Source: Lacunisphaera sp. | GTDB taxonomy: Bacteria > Verrucomicrobiota > Verrucomicrobiia > Opitutales > Opitutaceae | Direction of reading: 5' to 3' | DNA length: 64,000 bases | Assembly (NCBI GenBank): GCA_009695095.1 | Contig: SIBQ01000001.1 | Location: 2,501-66,500, forward strand | Program-made: the position numbers and the translations under genes | Notes under the pieces: generated by a model | What the model was told of the DNA's origin: nothing | The model's database searches: none | Seen by the model: only the letters and a program-made list of their open reading frames with translations | Shown here: piece by piece, positions 29,005-41,056 of the stretch | Position numbering within the stretch: position 1 is the first letter of the stretch | How the letters are laid out: the number at the start of each line of letters is the position of its first letter

Positions 29005-29658
29005 TCAATTACCGATCGTAAGCAGCTCGGGGGCAGTCCAGAAGGCCTTGCGGCCGGCGGTCTCGGCGCGGACCCTGGCGACGGTCTCAGGCTGAACCTC
29101 GGGGGCGGCATTGCCCCAAGTGCCGCGCACATAAGACAGGACATTGGCGATCTGCTCGTCTTTCAACGTCTCGCCCAAAGGCGCCATGACATTGTTGAAT
29201 TCGGTGCCCTTGACCTTGATCAGGCCGTTGAGGCCGTGGAGCACGATGCGGATGATGCGCTCTTCGCTGCCCAGCGCCCACTCGGAGTCGACCAGCGGGG
29301 GATAAAGGCCGGCTTGGCCCAGGCCGCTGGCTTGGTGGCAGGTGACGCAGGTCAGATCGAAAACCTTCTTGCCGAGTTGGACGCGAGTGAGCGGGACGAT
29401 CTTCACGGCGCCGGGCTTCTCCCGACTGGCGTGCTCGTTGTAAACCAACGGGTCGAAGCGCAGGGAATAATGCGCCAGGTAGATTGAACCGAAGAACACG
29501 GCCGTGCACATCAGGCCAAGCAGCACCAGCGGAAACATCGAGTAGCCGTCGGTCTTCTCGGGTTTGGTCTTCAGCAACTGGGCGTGGACCTGCTGGATGC
29601 TGTCGTCGCTGGCGCAGGCCTGCTCCAGGCGGAAATTGCTGTCGGGAGGCGCGCTCAT
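29005..29658 (-). CDS. Membrane-anchored monoheme cytochrome c (CcoP-like)
   Basis: A 217-residue protein with a cytoplasmic N-terminus, one membrane helix (FPLVLLGLMCTAVFFGSIYL, about 42-61) and a cytochrome c domain with one haem site CVTCH near residue 106, and VMAPLGETLKDEQIANVLSYV supplying the Met ligand. The layout resembles a CcoP cut down to one haem. It is the last gene of the respiratory operon and starts one base after the stop of the CcoO-like gene, so it probably passes electrons from that complex to an oxidase or soluble carrier. Confidence 0.85.
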   Translation of the reverse strand: MSAPPDSNFRLEQACASDDSIQQVHAQLLKTKPEKTDGYSMFPLVLLGLMCTAVFFGSIYLAHYSLRFDPLVYNEHASREKPGAVKIVPLTRVQLGKKVFDLTCVTCHQASGLGQAGLYPPLVDSEWALGSEERIIRIVLHGLNGLIKVKGTEFNNVMAPLGETLKDEQIANVLSYVRGTWGNAAPEVQPETVARVRAETAGRKAFWTAPELLTIGN

Positions 29659-29659
29659 G

Positions 29660-30319
29660 CTAGTGGCCGCCCTCCTTGGGCTTTTCCGCCGGGGTGTTCC
29701 GGCTGCGCTCAATCGGATAATCGTAGGTGTCCTTCAAGCCGAGCAGGTAGGCGACGAGGGCCTCGGCGCGGCGGGTGGGCACGACCTCCAGGCCGGCGCC
29801 CGGGGCAAACTTGCTGGGCAACGTGAGGGCATGCGCCGAGGGCTGGCGGCCAGCGACCGGGTGAACGTCGAACAGGAAGGTGTGCGCCGGCATGTTGGTG
29901 CCGGGGGCCTTGGACTGCGGGGCGTAGAGAATGCTGTAGAAGAAATCCGCATCGGCATAGGTGCGGGCGCCGACGTTGCGCAGGTCGGGCCCGATCCGGC
30001 TTTGCCCGATGAAGACGGTCGTATCTCGGATGTAGTCGCGGGCATAGCTGCCGCGCTCGCCCCACTTGCGGGCAAGGTCGCCTCCGCTGCCTTCCTGGCG
30101 GACCTGCTGGGTGTGGCAGGTGACGCAACCGAGATCCTGGTAAACGAGCCGGCCCTGGTCGGCGAGGCCGGAGAGCGGCTGCGGATGGAGGACATCATCC
30201 ACCGGATCCTTGAACTGGCTGAGGCTGCCGAGCTGCCGGTGTGCGGTCAGCAGCAGGCCGGCCCATGAGAGCGCGAGGGTGGCGAAGACGCCGAGGAAGA
30301 GGGCGAGTCCGTTTTTCAT
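29660..30319 (-). CDS. CcoO-like monoheme cytochrome c
   Basis: A 219-residue protein with one N-terminal membrane helix (GLALFLGVFATLALSWAGLLL) and a cytochrome c domain with DQGRLVYQDLGCVTCHTQQV near 55-74, GQSRIGPDLRNVGAR, and the Met ligand region KAPGTNMPAHTFLF. This matches subunit II of cbb3 oxidases (FixO/CcoO). It overlaps the CcoN-like gene by four bases. Because the CcoN-like partner lacks cofactor ligands, the CcoO-like protein here may act as a haem relay rather than as part of a working oxidase. Confidence 0.85.
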   Translation of the reverse strand: MKNGLALFLGVFATLALSWAGLLLTAHRQLGSLSQFKDPVDDVLHPQPLSGLADQGRLVYQDLGCVTCHTQQVRQEGSGGDLARKWGERGSYARDYIRDTTVFIGQSRIGPDLRNVGARTYADADFFYSILYAPQSKAPGTNMPAHTFLFDVHPVAGRQPSAHALTLPSKFAPGAGLEVVPTRRAEALVAYLLGLKDTYDYPIERSRNTPAEKPKEGGH

Positions 30320-31791
30320 GGGCCGACACCTTTCAGGCTATGGCCCACAGGTGGCTGGGGCCCGAGAGACATGTTGGGTGGATCACGAAACACCGCGACG
30401 GCCGTGTTTTTAGAGTTAATCGGGCAGGCGAGGAAGACGAAGTTGATGAAAAAGGCGACGTGGCCGGTGAACAGGAGCACCAGCCCGGCCGTGCGGAAGG
30501 CGAACCAAGGCAGCATGGCCTTGGTGACATCCACGAACTCCACCGCGGAATTGTTGAGCAGGTGGCCCTGGTGCCAGCCGGCGTAGGCCAGGCCGGCGGT
30601 CAGCAGCAGCCCGCCGAGCACCGTGGCGCCGATGTGCGCCTTGACCAGCAGGGGCGAGCGCCATTCGCGCTCCGTCAGGCGCGGCAGGATGAAATACGCG
30701 GCCCCGAACATGGCTGTCGAGAAGCAGGCGTAGAAGATCAGCCAGTCGCGCAGCTCGGTGAACAGAGTGAACTGGACGATCTGCACAAAGCCGCGCATTG
30801 AGAGCGCGAGGTTGAGTACCGAGGCGAGCACGAAGCCCACCATGCTCACCAGGATAAAGCGGAGGGTGAGGCTGCCGCCCAGGGCGCGGTAGCGGCCGGA
30901 GACCGTGCCGAAGAGGTTGAGCGCGATGATGACGATTGGCACCACCAGCATGTAATTGCCGACCGCGCCGAGAGTCGGTATCCAAACCGGAACCGGGGCG
31001 CCGATCAGGCGGCTGCCGCCGGCAAAGGCGGTCGTGACCACCAGCCACCAGAACGCGAGCGGGGCCAGATAGTAGTTGACGATGGGCTTGCCGAGAATCT
31101 TGGGCAGGAAGTAATAGGCCGCGGCCAGCGCCACCGGCATGAACCACAGACCGTAGAGCCCGTGCACATACCAGGCGTTGACGACGGGCTGCAGCGCACC
31201 GCGCACGGGCGCCTTCAGGAGCATCACCTGCGCGAGGGCGTAAAGCCAGGGGAACCAGAACGCGGCGCCGAACAGATACCATTGTGAGGCGAATACATTC
31301 TCGGTGTTGCGGATGCTAAAGGTTGTAACCGACCAGGCCCCGATGAGGGCGTAGGACGCGAGGAGGATGAGCGTCACGAAACGCGGCATCTCCAGCAATT
31401 CGAAGGACGTCGAGTAACCGCCGAGAATGCCGAGCACACCGAGCGTGACGCCGATGTTCCAGAACTTCAGGGCGACAAACAGCCAGCCGCCGTGGCGGAG
31501 GGTCGTCGCGGACAGGCGGGCCATCAGCCAGAGGCCAAAACCAAACGCGGCATTCATGCCCCAGCCGTAGACGAGGGCGTTCTGTGCGGCGGGGGCCACG
31601 CGGCCGTAGGTGGACCACTCACATGTCGAGAGAAAACCGGGCAGGTGGAGCTTGAGGGCGGCAATCAGCTGGAGCGCACCGCCGAGCAGGAGCCACAGCA
31701 ACGCCGAGCCGAAGAAGAAGAGCACCGGCCATTTGGCGGAGGTGTCGATCTCCATCTGTTCCGTGCGGTCGCTGTGATCGGGGGATGTCAT
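30316..31791 (-). CDS. CcoN-like membrane protein lacking most haem and copper ligands
   Basis: A 491-residue protein with about 12 membrane helices that aligns along its length with subunit I of cbb3 oxidase. Landmarks: CEWSTYGRVAPAAQNALVYG (CcoN has P-L-H), AWYVHGLYGLWF (CcoN W-Y-G-H-N), FAGGSRLIGAPVPVW (CcoN A-G-P-H-H-L-H-Y), FTELRDWLIFYACFS (CcoN W-T-I-G-H-V-H). By this reading only the first copper-ligand position keeps its His; the low-spin haem, haem b3 and two other copper ligands are Ala, Ser/Arg, and Arg/Trp. It should not bind the usual haems or reduce oxygen. ATG 31791 follows the previous gene by four bases; it overlaps the CcoO-like gene. It may anchor the cytochromes to complex III. 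Confidence 0.88.
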   Translation of the reverse strand: MTSPDHSDRTEQMEIDTSAKWPVLFFFGSALLWLLLGGALQLIAALKLHLPGFLSTCEWSTYGRVAPAAQNALVYGWGMNAAFGFGLWLMARLSATTLRHGGWLFVALKFWNIGVTLGVLGILGGYSTSFELLEMPRFVTLILLASYALIGAWSVTTFSIRNTENVFASQWYLFGAAFWFPWLYALAQVMLLKAPVRGALQPVVNAWYVHGLYGLWFMPVALAAAYYFLPKILGKPIVNYYLAPLAFWWLVVTTAFAGGSRLIGAPVPVWIPTLGAVGNYMLVVPIVIIALNLFGTVSGRYRALGGSLTLRFILVSMVGFVLASVLNLALSMRGFVQIVQFTLFTELRDWLIFYACFSTAMFGAAYFILPRLTEREWRSPLLVKAHIGATVLGGLLLTAGLAYAGWHQGHLLNNSAVEFVDVTKAMLPWFAFRTAGLVLLFTGHVAFFINFVFLACPINSKNTAVAVFRDPPNMSLGPQPPVGHSLKGVGP

Positions 31792-31795
31792 CGGG

Positions 31796-32101
31796 TTACT
31801 TCTTCGCGTGCTCCCGGGCGGTGAGTTTAATGGCCTCCTCAACGGGAATCCGGGCCACGCCGGCTTTCTGGTCGACCCAGCCGTAGGTGGTGGCTTCGGC
31901 CTGATCCTTGGCGTGGTGCTCCATGAAAAGCGCCTGGCGTTCGGCCGGGGTTCTCACGCCCTCGATCTTGTCCACCGTGTAGGCGTGCGGCGCGTAGATC
32001 TTCAGCGCGAGCCAGCCGAAGAGGGCGAAGCAGACCAGCACGATGACCGTGGTGAACACGGGTGTGCGGTGCGGGAAGGAAAATTGGGAGGAATCGCTCA
32101 T
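31796..32101 (-). CDS. Small single-span membrane protein of the act operon
   Basis: A 101-residue protein with one membrane helix (PVFTTVIVLVCFALFGWLAL, about 14-33) and an extracytoplasmic tail ending TTYGWVDQKAGVARIPVEEA plus a basic end. The motif YGWVDxxAGVxRIPxxxA recurs in small proteins encoded near respiratory gene clusters, but its role is unknown to me. It overlaps the end of actF by four bases and precedes the CcoN-like gene, so it probably links or assembles the two parts. Confidence 0.78.
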   Translation of the reverse strand: MSDSSQFSFPHRTPVFTTVIVLVCFALFGWLALKIYAPHAYTVDKIEGVRTPAERQALFMEHHAKDQAEATTYGWVDQKAGVARIPVEEAIKLTAREHAKK

Positions 32102-33354
32102 GGGGCGGTGGCCTCGTGGTGCGTGAGGGACTCGACGATACGCGGGTCGCGAATGGGGATGATCCGGGCGGTGGGAAAGCTCTTCAGGTAGGCCCAGACG
32201 CAGACACCGCCGACCCCGACGACGGAGGTGAGCACCCAGAGGAGGTTGAGCGAGAGGAACGGCAGCGGGTCGTCGTGCGCATCCTTGAGGGCCGGCAGAA
32301 TGTTGTAGCAGAGATCGACGAGGATGATGAAGGCCACCCAGATGCTGATGCCCAGGGCGGGGCCGAGGGTGGACTTGCGACGGTAGGACAACCACAGCAG
32401 GAAGGGCACGAAGAAGTGGCCGAAAAGGAGAAGCATGCCCACCCAGACCCAGTCGCCGTGCTCGCGGATGTTATACCAGAATGTTTCCTCGGGGACGTTG
32501 GCGTTCCAGATGAGGAAATACTGCGAGAAAGTAATGTAGGCCCAGAACACCACGAACGCGAAGGCCAGCGCGATGAGGCAATGCAGCTGGTTGGTGTTGA
32601 AGATGCCCCGGTAGTCACCGCGGGCGCAGAGCCAAAAGGTGATCATCATGCCGAAGGCCAGGCCGGCGCGGATGCAATTGGCGAAGAACCACACGCCATA
32701 CATCGTGGAGAACCAGTGATACTCAAGGCTCTTCATCCAGTAGATGGCGGCGAAGCTCAGCGCGAGGGCGGTGAGCGGGATGCCAAAAGCCGCGGTCGTC
32801 CGGTTCATGAACGTCCACTTGATGTCGCCGTCGGCGTCCTGCCGGAACGAGGCTTTGCGCAGCCGCGCCGAGAGCCAGACCCACACCACAAAGAAGCCTA
32901 CGGTCATACCGGTAAACATGTTCAGGTTCAGGAAACTGGCCTTCTTCTGGTAGAGCACGTCGCTGCCGACCGTGCCGTGGCCGCCGTGCAACACGTGCGT
33001 GAGATCCATCCACGGCCAGACCAGGCCCGGGTTCAACCAAGCGGAAATGAGCAGCGGCAGAAAGAGCACGAAGAGCCACTTGAAGGCGGACAGGCCGTGC
33101 TCGAACTGGCGGCGGATGACGGTGGACCAGCCCGCGTCGACAATGTGATGGATGAGCACCAGCAGCAGCATGCCGATGCACACGGCGGTCCAGTAGGCGA
33201 TGCCCACGAGATAGGAAAGCGCGACGCCCTGATGATTTCCGGTCAGGAAATAACCGAGCGCGGTGAGCGCGAGACCGGCGACACCGGCGACGAGGAACTT
33301 GACCGCCAAGCTGGCGGTCGTGGGGGACGGGGAGGTGGCGGCAGGCGCGCTCAT
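32098..33354 (-). CDS. actF: Alternative complex III subunit ActF (quinol-side membrane subunit)
   Basis: A 418-residue polytopic protein with ten membrane helices, related to ActC and the NrfD family. Typical text: SYLVGIAYWTAVCIGMLLLV, LIHHIVDAGWSTVIRRQFEH, and WVAFIILVDLCYNILPALKD. In solved complexes ActC and ActF face the membrane; ActC bears the quinol site and ActF a likely proton path. It starts one base after the actE stop region and overlaps the next gene by four bases. Confidence 0.9.
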   Translation of the reverse strand: MSAPAATSPSPTTASLAVKFLVAGVAGLALTALGYFLTGNHQGVALSYLVGIAYWTAVCIGMLLLVLIHHIVDAGWSTVIRRQFEHGLSAFKWLFVLFLPLLISAWLNPGLVWPWMDLTHVLHGGHGTVGSDVLYQKKASFLNLNMFTGMTVGFFVVWVWLSARLRKASFRQDADGDIKWTFMNRTTAAFGIPLTALALSFAAIYWMKSLEYHWFSTMYGVWFFANCIRAGLAFGMMITFWLCARGDYRGIFNTNQLHCLIALAFAFVVFWAYITFSQYFLIWNANVPEETFWYNIREHGDWVWVGMLLLFGHFFVPFLLWLSYRRKSTLGPALGISIWVAFIILVDLCYNILPALKDAHDDPLPFLSLNLLWVLTSVVGVGGVCVWAYLKSFPTARIIPIRDPRIVESLTHHEATAP

Positions 33355-33355
33355 G

Positions 33356-33988
33356 TTACTTCAGCCATCCCCTTTGGTCGGCCGGCACATCGGCCAGTGT
33401 GGCGTGCCGCGCGCGCTGGAGGGCCCGCACATACGCGACCACGGCCCAGCGATCATCGGGCGAGAGTTTGTCCGCGTAGGAAAACATCGTGTTCTTGCCG
33501 TGGGTGATGGTGTTGAAAATCTCCCCCTCGGCTATCGCGCGCAGGCGGTCGTCGTGGTAGGTCGGGGTGACGAGCATGCCGTAGGACTTGGTGATGCCGT
33601 TGCCGTCGCCGAGCACGCCGTGGCAGGGAGCGCAGTAAATCAGGTAGTGGTTCTGGCCGCGCTTGATGAAAGCCTCGGTGACCTCGACCGGGAAGCCGCG
33701 GCCGAAGGAGCCGTCGACGAGCTTGCCCTCGTAGTGGAAGTCATCGGCGCGGAGGAAGGCAGGGTCGGCCGCGGCGCTGCGGCCGCGCGGCACGGTGCCA
33801 CCGGGAATCGGCCGGTCGGCGCGGCCGTCGGTGAAGAACTTGGACGTCGCCTGGGGCTTGTATTTGCCCTGGTGGTCCATGTCGGGGAAGACCTCGATCG
33901 GGGGCAAAGGCGAGCGCAGGCCGCGGAAGCCCATGACGGAGATCAGGAGCACCACGAGGAAGGCGAGCGTGTAGTAGGCGAAGCGCAT
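33356..33988 (-). CDS. actE: Alternative complex III subunit ActE (monoheme cytochrome c)
   Basis: A 210-residue protein with an N-terminal membrane or lipid anchor (FAYYTLAFLVVLLISVMGFRG) and a cytochrome c domain carrying one CAPCH at about residue 127, with the Met ligand in the segment YGMLVTPTYHDD or TMFSYADKL. The start PLPPIEVFPDMDHQGKYKPQ after the anchor is typical of ActE. It would carry electrons from ActA to a soluble or oxidase-bound cytochrome. ATG 33988 is adjacent to the actD stop. Confidence 0.9.
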   Translation of the reverse strand: MRFAYYTLAFLVVLLISVMGFRGLRSPLPPIEVFPDMDHQGKYKPQATSKFFTDGRADRPIPGGTVPRGRSAAADPAFLRADDFHYEGKLVDGSFGRGFPVEVTEAFIKRGQNHYLIYCAPCHGVLGDGNGITKSYGMLVTPTYHDDRLRAIAEGEIFNTITHGKNTMFSYADKLSPDDRWAVVAYVRALQRARHATLADVPADQRGWLK

Positions 33989-33989
33989 C

Positions 33990-34520
33990 TTATTCTTCCA
34001 GTTCGGCGATGTCCTTGCCGCCGGATTGCTCGAGCAGGGCGCGGGTCCGGGCGGCGTCGAATTTCGGGTCACGGGCCTCGATCACTATGTAGAAGCGGTC
34101 GTCGGTGGCGCGGACGAACTGCGGCGCCTTCAAAACGGGGTGGTAGTGCATCGGCAGGCCGTTGAGGAGGAACATGCCGATGATGGTGGCGAAGGCGGTG
34201 AAGAGAATCGTCAGCTCGTAAGCCACGGGGAAAGCGTACATCGGGCTGAAGTAGGGCTTGCCGCCGACGACCAGAGCATACTCGTAGGCGCTGGCCCACC
34301 AGATGAACGACATGCCGGTGACAAACCCGGTGATGCCGCCGGCGAGCGAGAAGCGCGGCACCTTGGAGCGGCGCACGCCCATGGCGGCGTCGAGCCCGTG
34401 GATGGGGAACGGCGTGAGGGCATCCCACTGCGAGTAGCCGGCGTCGCGCACCTTTTCGCACGCCGAGTAAAAGCGGGGGGTGGTGTCGAAGGTGGCGATG
34501 AGCCCGTAGGTTTCTTTCAT
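33990..34520 (-). CDS. actD: Alternative complex III subunit ActD (DUF3341)
   Basis: A 176-residue DUF3341 protein. It starts with a small cytoplasmic domain (GLIATFDTTPRFYSACEKVR, then PFPIHGLDAAMGVRRSKVP) and has two membrane helices (LAGGITGFVTGMSFIWWASA; YELTILFTAFATIIGMFLLN). It is a structural subunit binding beside ActC. Position between actC and actE is canonical. Confidence 0.92.
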   Translation of the reverse strand: MKETYGLIATFDTTPRFYSACEKVRDAGYSQWDALTPFPIHGLDAAMGVRRSKVPRFSLAGGITGFVTGMSFIWWASAYEYALVVGGKPYFSPMYAFPVAYELTILFTAFATIIGMFLLNGLPMHYHPVLKAPQFVRATDDRFYIVIEARDPKFDAARTRALLEQSGGKDIAELEE

Positions 34521-34532
34521 GGCCGGGCCTCC

Positions 34533-35965
<1,433 letters not shown>

Positions 35966-35966
<1 letters not shown>

Positions 35967-38900
35967 CAGCCCTGCCCTTCGTGTTTGGCGGGTTCAGCCG
36001 CCGGCTTCGCCGCGTGGCCCGGGGCGGCACCGTGCGCTGAGTGGCCGTTCTTCTGGTTGTATTCGACGCGACTGAGGGGGAGCGCGCCGTAGTCGGGCAT
36101 CGCGGGATTCGGATTGCGCAGCTTGCCGAGATAGGTCGTGCGCGGCCGGACGTTGAGATAACCGAGGACGGCGTAGTCGCGATCCTGCCGTTTGGCGGTG
36201 GAGACGGCGCTGTGCTCGTCGAGGATGTTGCCGAAGATGATGGCCTCGACCGGGCACACCTGCTCGCAGGCGGTTTTGATCGTGCCGTCGGGAATCTCGA
36301 CATTGCCGGTGGCGCCTGCCTTGCGCTTCTGGGCGATCTTGGCCTGCTGCACGCGCTGGACGCAATAGGTGCACTTCTCCATGACGCCACGCATGCGCAC
36401 GGTGACATCGGGATTCTTCACCATCTTCACCAACTCGGGCACCTCGTCCTGGTGGCCAAGCGGTCCCATATAGAGGGCGTCGAGCGACCGTTTGTTGAAG
36501 TCGAAGAAATTGAAACGCCGGACCTTGTAGGGGCAGTTGTTCGCGCAATAGCGGGTGCCGATGCAGCGATTGTAGGCCATGACGTTGACTCCTTCGTCAT
36601 CGTGTACCGTGGCGTTGACGGGGCACACTGTCTCGCAGGGCGCAAGCTCGCAGTGCTGGCAGGTCATGGGCTGCATCGAGACCTGGGGGGAGACGGTGGG
36701 GTCATCCGAGTCGCCCGGCAGCGCCTTGTTGCCCTCGGCACCGAAGGCCTGCACGTCGGCGTGGCCGTCGGAGTAGTAGCGATCGAGGCGGATCCATTGC
36801 ATCTCGCGGCCGCGCATGACCTGTTCCTTGCCGACGATGGGAATGTTGTTCTCCGCCTGACAGGCGATGATGCAGGCATTGCAGCCGATGCAGGTGTTAA
36901 GGTCGATCGACATGCCCCACTGGTGCGGGCCGTCGAGGTTGGGTGACTCGTAAAGCGAATTGCCGCGCGGCGTCGTGGTGGCGATGAAGGCCGGCGACTT
37001 GTCTTTGTCCGCGCCAAGCACGGCGGGGGTGTGCGACTCCATGCCGATGCCGTTCACGAAATCTGGGTTTTTCAAGTAGCCCTCTTCACCGTCGAAATTG
37101 GCCTCGCGCACGATGTCGCGGCCCTCCATCGACCAGTGCTCCTGCGTGTTGGCGAGCTTGAGGCGCTCGGTGGTCTTGGCCAGCTTCGCGCCGGTGGCGA
37201 AGCCCAGCGCATCCGTCGAACGGACCGCATAGGCGCTGAAACCCGCCCCGGTGCCGATGTGGCCGGACTTGGTGCGGCCATAACCGAGCGGGAGCACAAT
37301 GGTGTAATTCGAAAGACCGGGCTGGATGTGCACGGGGCCGCGCACCGTGCGCCCATTGAGAGTCACTTCGAAAACAAAGGCGTTCTCCTTGCCCTGGGAA
37401 AACTCCGCCTCTTCCTTGCGCGCGACCTGCAGCATGCTGCCGCCGGGCACCACGCCGAGCTCCTTGGCGAGTCGCGGGCTGACGAGGATGGCATTGTCCC
37501 AAGAAATCTTGGTCATGGGATCCGGGCATTCCTGCAGCCAGCCGTTGTTGGCGAAACGGCCGTCGTCCATCTTGTGGTCGGTGACGAAGCGCACCTCGAG
37601 GTTGTCCTTCGAGAGCGCGGCAAAAGCCGGGCTCTGGGCAAAGGCTGAGCCGGAGCGCTGCGGGTCGAAGGCGACCGGCACCGCCTTGTAGGCCGAGCCC
37701 GCGAGCAGCCCGTCGTGGAGGAATTTCTCGAACGCCTTCTTGCTGTCGCCGCTGGTGAGCCGGCCGATGGTGGTGAAAACCTGGGCGTAGGCGTCGGGGT
37801 TCTCCTCCCCTGCCACCCGGGCGAGCAGTTCGACCTCGGAGAGGCCGTTGAAGAGCGGCAGGATCATCGGCTGGACCGGCACAATCGTGCCGTCGACCGT
37901 GCGGGCGTCGCCCCACGACTCGAGGTAATGCGTCGCGCCGATGTGCGTGCCGGCCTGGGCGGAAGTTTCGTCAACGTAGTAACCGAAACGGATGACCTCC
38001 GGCACCGAGCCCAGCAGCCTGGCAAAATCGAGTTCCGCCGGCGCGTTATAGGCCGGGTTGCCCCCGAGCACGAGAAGGGTCTTGACCGAGCCGGCCTTGA
38101 TGGCGGTGGCGAGCGAGAGAATACCGGAAGCCAACGACGGCTCGATTTCGACAAAGTCCACCGTCGAGCCGAGGTTGCCGAGCCGGGCGTTGATGGCGTT
38201 GGCCAGCACGTGGACGGCCACAGGCAGGTGAGCGCCGGCGACCACCAGGCTCGCACCGCTGTGTGCCAGCAAGTCCTTTGCGCACTCCTCGATCCATTTC
38301 GAGTTCAGGTCGAGGCCCGACGCGCGCGCGGCGAACACCTTGGTCCCAAGCACCTCGTTGGCTAGGGCGGCGGCTAGGCCGAGCATGTGGCTGCTGGCCA
38401 GGCGCAGGCGATGGTCGGCCATGCTGCCGGTGAGCGAGAAACCGCTCTCGGCGACATAAAGCCGGTTCATCTCGTCAGTCGTCTTGGTCACGCGGCGGCC
38501 CTTGGCAAAATCGCGGGCGTAATACAGTGCGCCGGCCTCGGCGTGGAAGAAATCGGCATCGAGGCTGACGATGCGCCTGGCCTTGGCGAAGCGATAGACC
38601 GGCTTCACATTCTTGCCGAACGAAGCCTGCGCGGCAGCCACCGGCGGCTCGTCCTGCACGGGCTCGTATTCGGCCCAGATGGCGCGCGGGAATTTCTGCT
38701 TCAGTTTCGCCACAAGCCGGGCACGGGTCGGCGAAGCCGACTCATCGGCCAGGAATGCCAGCCCCGCGCCGTTGCCGCCGTAGGCCTTGGTGATGCCCGC
38801 GAGGATGTCGTTCACCTGGGCGTTGGTCAGCGTGGTGCCGCCCTTGGTGTGGGCCGTGGCGCGCTCCGGGTCGTACAGATCAAGCACCGAGGCCTGGGCG

Positions 38901-39319
38901 AGGAGCGAGCTGGCGCCGCCGTGCGGCAGGTAGCTCGGGTTGCCCTCGAGCTTGGTCGGGCGGCCCTGGTGCGTCTCGGCGATCAGCGGGATGGCCGACT
39001 TGCGCTGAGGCATCGCCGTGGCGAAATAAAGCGGGAGGCCGGGGACGGTGTATTCGACGGACTTGCCGTAGGGCAGGATGTGCGCCTCCGGGCGACGGCA
39101 GCCGGCCAGGCCCAGCCCGCCAAACGCGAACGATGCCGCCATCAGCTTCATGAACTGCCGGCGATCCACCCCGTCCATCGAGGACGCGCCCTCGGGGAAT
39201 TCGCGGGCAAGGTGCTCGCGGAAACCGGGTGTGTCCGCCAGCTCGTCGAGGCTGCGCCAGTATTTCGGGCCGGAAAGCTCGCGCGGCGAGGTGGCGGGAT
39301 GGTCAAATTTGCGTTTCAT
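35966..39319 (-). CDS. actB: Alternative complex III subunit ActB (MopB-like plus iron-sulphur fusion)
   Basis: A 1117-residue fusion. The N-terminus has a delayed Tat motif ([19 protein letters not shown]) followed by LAGC, a lipobox-like site. Residues about 80-750 are a molybdopterin-oxidoreductase-like domain that in this family carries no molybdenum. The C-terminal third holds the ferredoxin motifs for four clusters: [64 protein letters not shown] and [10 protein letters not shown]. It relays electrons from ActC to ActA on the periplasmic face. It overlaps actA and actC by one base each. Confidence 0.95.
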
Positions 39320-39972
39320 CAGCGATGGCAGCCGGAGCAGCTTTGCGGCGGTTTGACCTTCCAGTCGTGGACGAACTTCTCGGCGTCAGTGAGTTTGCCC
39401 TGCGCCGCGAGCGTCGAGGAATTGAGATTGAAGACGTCCTCGGGATTGCGGAGGCGGGAGGCGGGGTTGCGGTGGCAGTCGAGGCACCAGCTCATGCTGT
39501 GGGGCTGGTCGTGGTAGACGACGCTCATCTCGTTCACCTTACCGTGACACTCGACGCAGCTGACGCCGCGGTTCACGTGGACGGAGTGGTTGAAGTAGAC
39601 GTAGTCGGGCGTCTGATGGATCTTGACCCACGGCACGGGCTCGCCGGTCGCGTAGCTCTGGCGCACGATCTCGAGCAGCGGGCTGGTGGGTTTGATGATG
39701 CTGTGGCAATTCATGCAGGTCTGGGCGGCGGGGACGCTCGACGTGCCGGACTTCTCGACCCCGGCATGGCAGTACCGGCAGTCGAGACCGAGCTGGCCGG
39801 CGTGCAGGCTGTGGTCAAAGGGGACGGGCTGCACCGGCTGGTAGCCGACGCGCAGGTAGGCTGGCGTGGCGTAGTAGGTGATGCCCGCCGTCGTGACTCC
39901 GCCCAGGATGAAAAGAAAAATCACGATCTGCAGCGGCAGAGCGTTGGCGGCCTTGGGGAAAATCTTCGACAT
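39319..39972 (-). CDS. actA: Alternative complex III subunit ActA (pentaheme cytochrome c)
   Basis: A 217-residue protein with one N-terminal membrane helix (LPLQIVIFLFILGGVTTAGI) and five CxxCH haem sites in order: CRYCH, CMNCH, CVECH, CLDCH and CSGCH, the last at the C-terminus. It receives electrons from ActB. It is the first gene of a ten-gene minus-strand unit (actA to the monoheme cytochrome at 29005). The 300 bases upstream should hold the promoter, but I cannot place it. Confidence 0.95.
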   Translation of the reverse strand: MSKIFPKAANALPLQIVIFLFILGGVTTAGITYYATPAYLRVGYQPVQPVPFDHSLHAGQLGLDCRYCHAGVEKSGTSSVPAAQTCMNCHSIIKPTSPLLEIVRQSYATGEPVPWVKIHQTPDYVYFNHSVHVNRGVSCVECHGKVNEMSVVYHDQPHSMSWCLDCHRNPASRLRNPEDVFNLNSSTLAAQGKLTDAEKFVHDWKVKPPQSCSGCHR

Positions 39973-40269: not shown

Positions 40270-40922
40270 CTAGTCCCGGTTCGTTGGGTCTCCCCACTGA
40301 TACAGGCAGGCTTCATAGAGGGCCGCGTCCTTCCTGTTCAATTCCAGAATCTCCGCGCGAACCCCCGGGTCGAGTTTGTAGCGGCCGGCCGGTTTTCCGG
40401 ATTGAGGTTGCCCCGGCGCAGCGGCGCCGCCGTGATGCCGAGCATCTGCGCCATGCGGGCCAGCGATCGGTCGAACTCCTCCACGATGCCGATGAAGAAG
40501 AAATCCTCGGGGAGTTTGCTGCCGAAGAAATGGGACATCTCATTTCGCACCAGGGGCAGCGCGGCGTATCCGGTCAGGGACAGCTTTCGGCGGTGCAACT
40601 CCTCACACACGGGGTGCTGCCAATCCGGATCCCGCAGCCGGTGATAATAGGACGAGACCACCCTTTCGGCTGGATCCCGCACCCAGGTGATCAGAGCGGA
40701 GTCCGGAAAAGTGTTCGCAAGCTGGTCCGCCTGATAATGACCGTGAACGCAGGTCGCATCGGATGGCACTTCCGCGAGGACTTGTCCCCAGGCATCGGTT
40801 ATCTGCCAGTAATACAGGACGAAACCCGGGCCGAAATGCTCCTTGGGGATGTTACGGATGCTGACCCCCGCCGTCTTGGGAATGTGGATGCTGAGATATT
40901 TTTGCTGCAGGCTGGGTTTCAT
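40270..40922 (-). pseudogene. Sulfotransferase family 2-like gene, frame broken near the 3' end
   Basis: The protein starts MKPSLQQKYLSIHIPKTAGV, with the 5'-phosphosulfate-binding loop HIPKTAG, and VTWVRDPAERVVSSYYHRL holding the 3'-phosphate site (as ITWVRDPAERVVSSYYH). The main frame stops early with ARRFWN, but the adjoining frame continues RYKLDPGVRAEILELNRKDA and ends in an intact tail at 40270. Restoring one G in the run at about 40395 gives a full frame (653 plus 1 equals 218 codons). It would transfer sulphate from PAPS to a sugar. ATG 40922 is the likeliest start; others at 40931 and 40961 are possible. Confidence 0.72.
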
Positions 40923-41056
40923 GCTTATCATTGATTTAATCTGAATGACCATCGGCGACACTTAACCCGCTACTCGATTGGCCCGTAATTTGAGCAAGGG
41001 CGGATTCCTATCCAAGACTCGGATACCTTGAATCCGGTTACAGGCGATTTATCGGT

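Follow-up and report, generated by a model that had tools for sequence, protein, structure and literature searches.

Haem-copper subunit I is normally treated as a protein defined by its cofactor ligands. The published HCO classifier discarded sequences without six His, and it requires these six residues for NORs also (PMC3084760). The co-location of the genes for alternative complex III (ACIII) and a "cbb3" oxidase in verrucomicrobial methanotrophs has been published (PMC6688271, PMC8498564); according to PMC8498564, ACIII is paired with a C-type oxidase only in verrucomicrobial methanotrophs and Opitutaceae, and the cbb3 type is listed among the oxidases of the former (PMC10205796). In Flavobacterium johnsoniae and Rhodothermus marinus, ACIII forms supercomplexes with an aa3 or caa3 oxidase, in which it hands electrons directly to the A-type enzyme and needs no soluble carrier (PMC8552683, PMC5928083).

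Here we analysed a 64,000-nucleotide stretch of DNA from Lacunisphaera sp. (hereafter called the window), in which an ACIII operon encodes a CcoN-like subunit with only one ligand histidine. Large in number and conserved, a group of such ligandless subunits sits in the respiratory operon of many Verrucomicrobiota.

Operon and fold of the window protein

The operon, which is nearly gapless, is arranged in the order actA-B-C-D-E-F, a small one-TM protein, ccoN, ccoO and ccoP. Its genes are as follows.

39319..39972, minus strand: actA, pentahaem cytochrome c (five CxxCH)
35966..39319, minus strand: actB, molybdopterin-like and iron-sulfur domains
34533..35966, minus strand: actC, NrfD family (PF03916, 1.5e-21)
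33990..34520, minus strand: actD (PF11821, 1.2e-63)
33356..33988, minus strand: actE, monohaem cytochrome c (haem motif read directly)
32098..33354, minus strand: actF, NrfD/PsrC-like membrane subunit (position and cross-match to the ActC profile; alone without a Pfam match)
31796..32101, minus strand: small single-TM protein between actF and ccoN, 101 aa, C-terminal motif YGWVDQKAGVARIPVEEAIKLT (no Pfam match)
30316..31791, minus strand: ligandless CcoN-like protein of 491 aa (from an ATG at 31791 to a stop codon that ends at 30316)
29660..30319, minus strand: CcoO/FixO-like monohaem cytochrome c (FixO, 4.9e-15; one CxxCH, invariant in relatives)
29005..29658, minus strand: CcoP-like monohaem cytochrome c (Cytochrom_C, 1e-12; one CxxCH; CxxCH and Met ligand conserved)

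The ccoN gene lies at the coordinates given in the original prediction; it is encoded on the minus strand, and the start codon of ccoO overlaps its stop codon. The ACIII gene set actA-F is complete, and the monohaem CcoO and the haem c-bearing CcoP of a cbb3 oxidase are both encoded, although CcoP carries one haem c, not two. The operon had been described as one with ACIII, a CcoO-like subunit and a monohaem cytochrome, which is confirmed here, with one CxxCH each in the CcoO- and CcoP-like proteins. There is no ccoS in the gap between actF and ccoN. For the small protein, we found no Pfam family; in intact and ligandless operons alike, it shares the C-terminal motif YGWVDQ..G.VRLPI.RA.ELT. 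Just upstream of actA and outside the operon, positions 40338-40961 of the minus strand encode a protein that by sequence resembles the sulfotransferase type (HIPKTAG near its start).

The 491-aa product matches COX1 in Pfam (PF00115, 1.4e-40, above the 34.8-bit cut-off), and its closest solved relatives by sequence in the PDB are cbb3 CcoN chains. The NCBIfam ccoN equivalog model, TIGR00780, aligns nearly full-length to the protein and scores 106.8 bits, far below its cut-off of 583.15. An AlphaFold model built on a 19-sequence alignment has a mean pLDDT of 79.5 and a pTM of 0.85; its top PDB match is CcoN 3mk7_A (TM 0.82 by query and 0.86 by target), and VIA-align superposes it on 3mk7 with Z ~44 over 442-448 residues. 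As modelled, the window protein retains the haem-copper oxidase superfamily fold. The Pfam match, together with this prediction for the protein alone, bears out the earlier claim that the length and the CcoN-like fold had been kept.

Loss of the cofactor ligands and of ccoS

Which residues occupy the cofactor-binding positions of the window protein? As the ruler for the ligand columns, we used the chain numbering of P. stutzeri CcoN1. In cbb3 oxidases, we take H60 and H347 to be the low-spin haem b ligands, H345 the haem b3 ligand, and H207, H257 and H258 the CuB ligands. In the alignment to P. stutzeri CcoN1, the six columns of the window protein hold A, H, S, R, R and W; the codons were located by alignment and numbering.

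31585..31587, minus strand: Ala69, at the low-spin haem b ligand position H60
31162..31164, minus strand: His210, the sole remaining ligand position (CuB, H207)
31009..31014, minus strand: Ser260-Arg261, at the CuB His-His pair (H257, H258)
30742..30750, minus strand: Arg348-Asp-Trp350, at the haem b3 / haem b His-x-His (H345, H347)

The original prediction, that five of the six ligand histidines are replaced (Ala; Ser-Arg; Arg and Trp) and only the helix-6 His is kept, matches the alignment residue by residue. The alignment with verified CcoN and act-operon homologues also revealed that the cross-linked Tyr251 is gone, since Thr254 occupies its column. In the whole-protein alignment, the window protein has no further His at a ligand position, so it lacks the six His that the classifier demands of NorB too. 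Homologues that retain all six His, with 40-46% identity, bridge the window protein to P. stutzeri CcoN, and the register is therefore independent of any one distant alignment. Moreover, the same replacements occur in nearly all close relatives, which argues against chance. The counterpart of His210 is Asn in four relatives (L017, L057-L059) and Gln in another (L019); because the remaining His varies in this manner, no metal site is under preservation.

A first scan, of genome contigs, yielded 19 loci. We then scanned 388 Verrucomicrobiota genomes, 123 of which had a match, and read 100 loci with their context. In the loci thus read, the actABCDEF-small-ccoN-ccoO-ccoP operon is conserved across the class. 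Among the fully tested act loci, CcoN keeps all six His in 28 and has lost its ligands in 68, where the replacements are specific to lineages and form patterns such as AHSRRW (the window), QQRHQQ, HSQKFI, SESHFV, FEADVQ, LNTYHW, AAVNQQ and HNQRYH. The original prediction had named six-His homologues in the same operon position as evidence against itself. Such homologues exist, at these 28 loci, yet the observation on the window protein stands; what they show is the ancestral state, and hence recurrent loss within one operon. All of the Planctomycetota relatives that we read (n=30) have the six His, and one of them (L020) has a complete act operon, so on this evidence the ancestor was intact. 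Within Verrucomicrobiota, the CcoN relatives not linked to act all keep the six His as well; in these two sets, ligand loss outside the group was sought and none was found.

The ligand columns were counted in 30 intact and 78 ligandless sequences. Among the latter, the number of His left at the six positions is none in 19, one in 52, two in 5 and three in 2. The CuB triad is kept in 0/78, Tyr251 and H257 are each kept in 0%, and the haem b3 ligand H345 is kept in a single sequence (1%). The low-spin pair persists only in two ligandless sequences. In these two (L095 and L097, from G013 and G167), H60 and H347 are kept, while the CuB and haem b3 ligands and ccoS are gone; such a CcoN may be an intermediate that might still bind a single haem b. 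Among the 103 columns that are invariant in the intact set, the ligand and Tyr columns vary more in the ligandless set, with an entropy of 2.42 bits versus 1.30 bits for the others (permutation p 0.001).

How does the loss of the ligands relate to CcoS? In R. capsulatus, according to PMC8267372, which cites Koch 2000 and Kulajta 2006, CcoN needs CcoS for haem b, haem b3 and CuB, and CcoNOQP without CcoS assembles yet is inactive. With a ccoS profile seeded on two short ORFs, we detected a CcoS-like ORF 176-308 bases upstream of ccoN in 28/28 six-His act loci versus 0/68 ligandless act loci (Fisher 7.6e-25, a value inflated by kinship). A whole-genome scan with Pfam FixS, separate from the locus profile, gave matches in 19/80 genomes, all with an intact CcoN and all at the locus; it found no ccoS in the MAG of the window, which is 91.5% complete. 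The act-gene tree yields nine independent pairs with contrasting ligand states, and in every one of them ccoS is missing from the ligandless member (sign test p 0.0039); the CcoN tree offers only three independent pairs, all of which show this contrast too. The link between the ligandless CcoN and the absence of ccoS is a new result. In view of the CcoS requirement, it provides a second, independent line of evidence for a cofactor-free CcoN. In addition, the assembly of CcoNOQP without CcoS is a precedent for a cofactor-free CcoN that still holds CcoO and CcoP. CcoG (TIGR02745), considered as another marker of cofactor insertion, is present in intact and ligandless genomes alike and does not discriminate between them.

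How many times were the ligands lost? Three changes suffice on the CcoN tree, from whose alignment the ligand columns had been excluded, while the ActB+ActC+ActF tree needs ten, nine of them forced by well-supported branches, or 11 if loss is irreversible. Because the two trees differ, the count lies between 3 and about 11: the loss occurred at least three times, and perhaps some 11 times. An AU test on the CcoN data weakly rejects an Opitutaceae clade (p 0.042). The disagreement may be due to long-branch attraction among the fast-evolving ligandless rows, all of which the CcoN tree places together, or to the exchange of ccoN between lineages. In two loci (L096 and L102, from G116 and G208), CcoN groups with the QQRHQQ clade and the Act proteins with those of G045, a conflict that suggests an exchange of genes inside the operon, if it is not an artefact of the trees.

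Selection and the proposed role of the ligandless subunit

Might the gene simply be decaying, and be retained only because its operon neighbours are needed? The loss of the ligands and of ccoS would fit a pseudogene, as would the dN/dS values (pairwise Nei-Gojobori), which are 0.06-0.40 for ligandless pairs and 0.01-0.13 for the intact pairs with a defined dS. Since the former extend up to 0.40, under weaker selection than the intact homologues, part of the ligandless sequence is relaxed. However, these values are well below 1, and the ligandless loci that we read have full-length open frames, with a few in-match stops at the C-terminal end; we rejected the pseudogene on these grounds. Furthermore, many non-ligand columns are more than 95% conserved across 81 ligandless sequences, and the ligandless CcoN persists at genus to order depth, which makes decay very improbable. 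The earlier view of a repurposed fold under selection is thus well supported by the intact frames, the dN/dS values, the conserved operon and fold, and the ligand loss in parallel with ccoS.

As the ligands and ccoS are lost while the gene stays intact under selection, its product is probably a scaffold for two cytochromes c, not an oxidase. We propose that the ancestor would have been a working ACIII-linked cbb3 oxidase with the arrangement actABCDEF-small-ccoS-ccoN-ccoO-ccoP. In lineages possessing a second haem-copper oxidase, ccoS would have been deleted and the ligands would have decayed, repeatedly, producing a catalytically dead cbb3 subunit I into which no haem b, haem b3 or CuB would be inserted. 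The leftover polytopic membrane scaffold of CcoN fold would keep the monohaem CcoO and CcoP beside ACIII, and a c-haem relay would run from menaquinol through ACIII (ActB/ActA/ActE) and CcoO/CcoP to a separate aa3- or caa3-type oxidase. We assign a probability of roughly 0.62 to this reading as a whole. To judge from the sequences, the ligandless CcoN very probably carries neither haem b nor copper; it is likely to form a physical complex with CcoO/CcoP and ACIII, and a relay of electrons to an aa3-type oxidase is somewhat better than an even bet. Whether an oxidase was converted to such a scaffold repeatedly, up to ~11 times in one class and with the loss of ccoS each time, is a more tentative matter, at slightly less than even odds.

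Which oxidase could receive the electrons? Apart from the ligandless CcoN, the Lacunisphaera genome encodes a single COX1 protein, which is of aa3 type and has as its neighbour a coxB with a fused cytochrome c; a canonical cbb3 was not found in this 91.5% complete MAG. These caa3 genes are on a different contig, so in the lineage of the window the relay gains no support from operon proximity. At least one further strong COX1 match is present in every genome searched that has a ligandless CcoN; in two genomes (G001, G146), the act-linked COX1 is the only match, and it keeps all six His. In four families (f10, f11, f14 and f18), an aa3 coxA starts 1.5-2.4 kb behind ccoN, closely after ccoP, and a CuA-bearing coxB is present in four ligandless clusters read further downstream (G252, G042, G281 and G191). 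The small protein is fused to an added cytochrome c domain in 12 ligandless loci versus 0/28 intact ones. That aa3 co-occurs in these genomes is weak evidence, since it is also present in most of the intact ones. Together, the further COX1, the downstream coxA and coxB, and the cytochrome c fusion of the small protein favour a c-haem relay from ACIII to an A-type oxidase, with CcoN as its anchor.

A purely structural role is the main alternative: CcoN, with or without CcoO and CcoP, would serve ACIII as a subunit for docking or stability, or would be the glue of an ACIII-oxidase supercomplex, while electrons would travel via ActE or a soluble cytochrome c. ACIII indeed reduces aa3 or caa3 directly without such a module in F. 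johnsoniae (PMC8552683) and R. marinus (PMC5928083). Residues such as D16, P136, P181, W182, P266 and W377, which act-linked CcoN proteins share whether intact or ligandless, and which P. stutzeri CcoN lacks, would suit docking. In contrast, 69/69 ligandless loci retain the CxxCH motifs of both CcoO and CcoP, and 99% the Met ligand of CcoP, and some lineages have gained the further cytochrome c domain. Both observations point to electron transfer, and the structural role on its own seems unlikely. The electron-transfer or docking module of the original prediction remains the best functional reading, as one that we infer rather than demonstrate.

Could the emptied cavity instead bind a different cofactor or a quinone through lineage-specific ligands, such as Arg/Trp, Gln/Arg or Gln/Lys? 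Within a clade, the former ligand sites have for the most part become fixed for new residues, the majority of them polar, for instance S-R, R, W in the clade of the window or Q, Q, R-H, Q, Q in another. However, the replacements are wholly different between clades, where these columns are no more conserved than average ones, and no common buried acidic residue or His substitutes for the set, so this possibility is improbable. Still harder to credit is the idea that the protein continues to reduce oxygen or NO by means of displaced ligands. The kept fold and length would allow it, but no His elsewhere takes over a ligand position, ccoS is gone, and the low-spin pair is left only in the two species described above.

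Comparison with known systems

The ligandless CcoN bears on the published accounts of methanotroph respiration. In the pmoA-bearing genomes, the six CcoN positions read SESHFV or ADAHQT, and five loci of family f11 with pmoA (L139, L141, L142, L144 and L146) have a ligandless CcoN; in a sixth f11 genome with pmoA (G008), the CcoN query gave no match. Among the COX1 matches read in the pmoA-bearing genomes, there is no intact cbb3, and these genomes also have A-type and B-type oxidases and a NorB-like protein, the latter two typed by sequence motif. The ACIII-linked "cbb3 oxidase" of verrucomicrobial methanotrophs, whose identity as methanotrophs we deduce from pmoA and class, therefore appears to be a ligandless CcoN. 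Accordingly, the cbb3 claim, and the O2-affinity inferences drawn from it, need checking. In the literature searched, which included few subscription papers, we found no prior description of the missing ligands, and the novelty is therefore provisional. An operon that has the active site in one species and lacks it in a sister species offers a natural experiment on the other roles of a terminal oxidase complex.

How does the window module compare with the described systems? It resembles the cbb3 (C-family) CcoN/CcoO/CcoP oxidase of P. stutzeri (3mk7) in the subunit I fold, the N-O-P order and the FixO-family second subunit. It differs in that it lacks the ligands, the Tyr and ccoS, has a CcoP with one haem c, and is located in an act operon. 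The intact ACIII-linked cbb3 operons of other Verrucomicrobiota and Planctomycetota (for example L020, L060 and L072) share the same operon, small protein, CcoO and CcoP, with ~40-46% identity in CcoN, whereas they keep the six His, the Tyr and ccoS. In the ACIII supercomplexes of F. johnsoniae and R. marinus, no CcoNOP-like module has been described between ACIII and the oxidase. Finally, the CcoS-null CcoNOQP of R. capsulatus (PMC8267372, citing Koch 2000 and Kulajta 2006) has a CcoN without haem b, haem b3 and CuB, like that proposed for the window, and assembles with CcoO and CcoP. That protein, however, is a laboratory mutant with its ligands present, while the ligandless state of CcoN described here is evolved and fixed.
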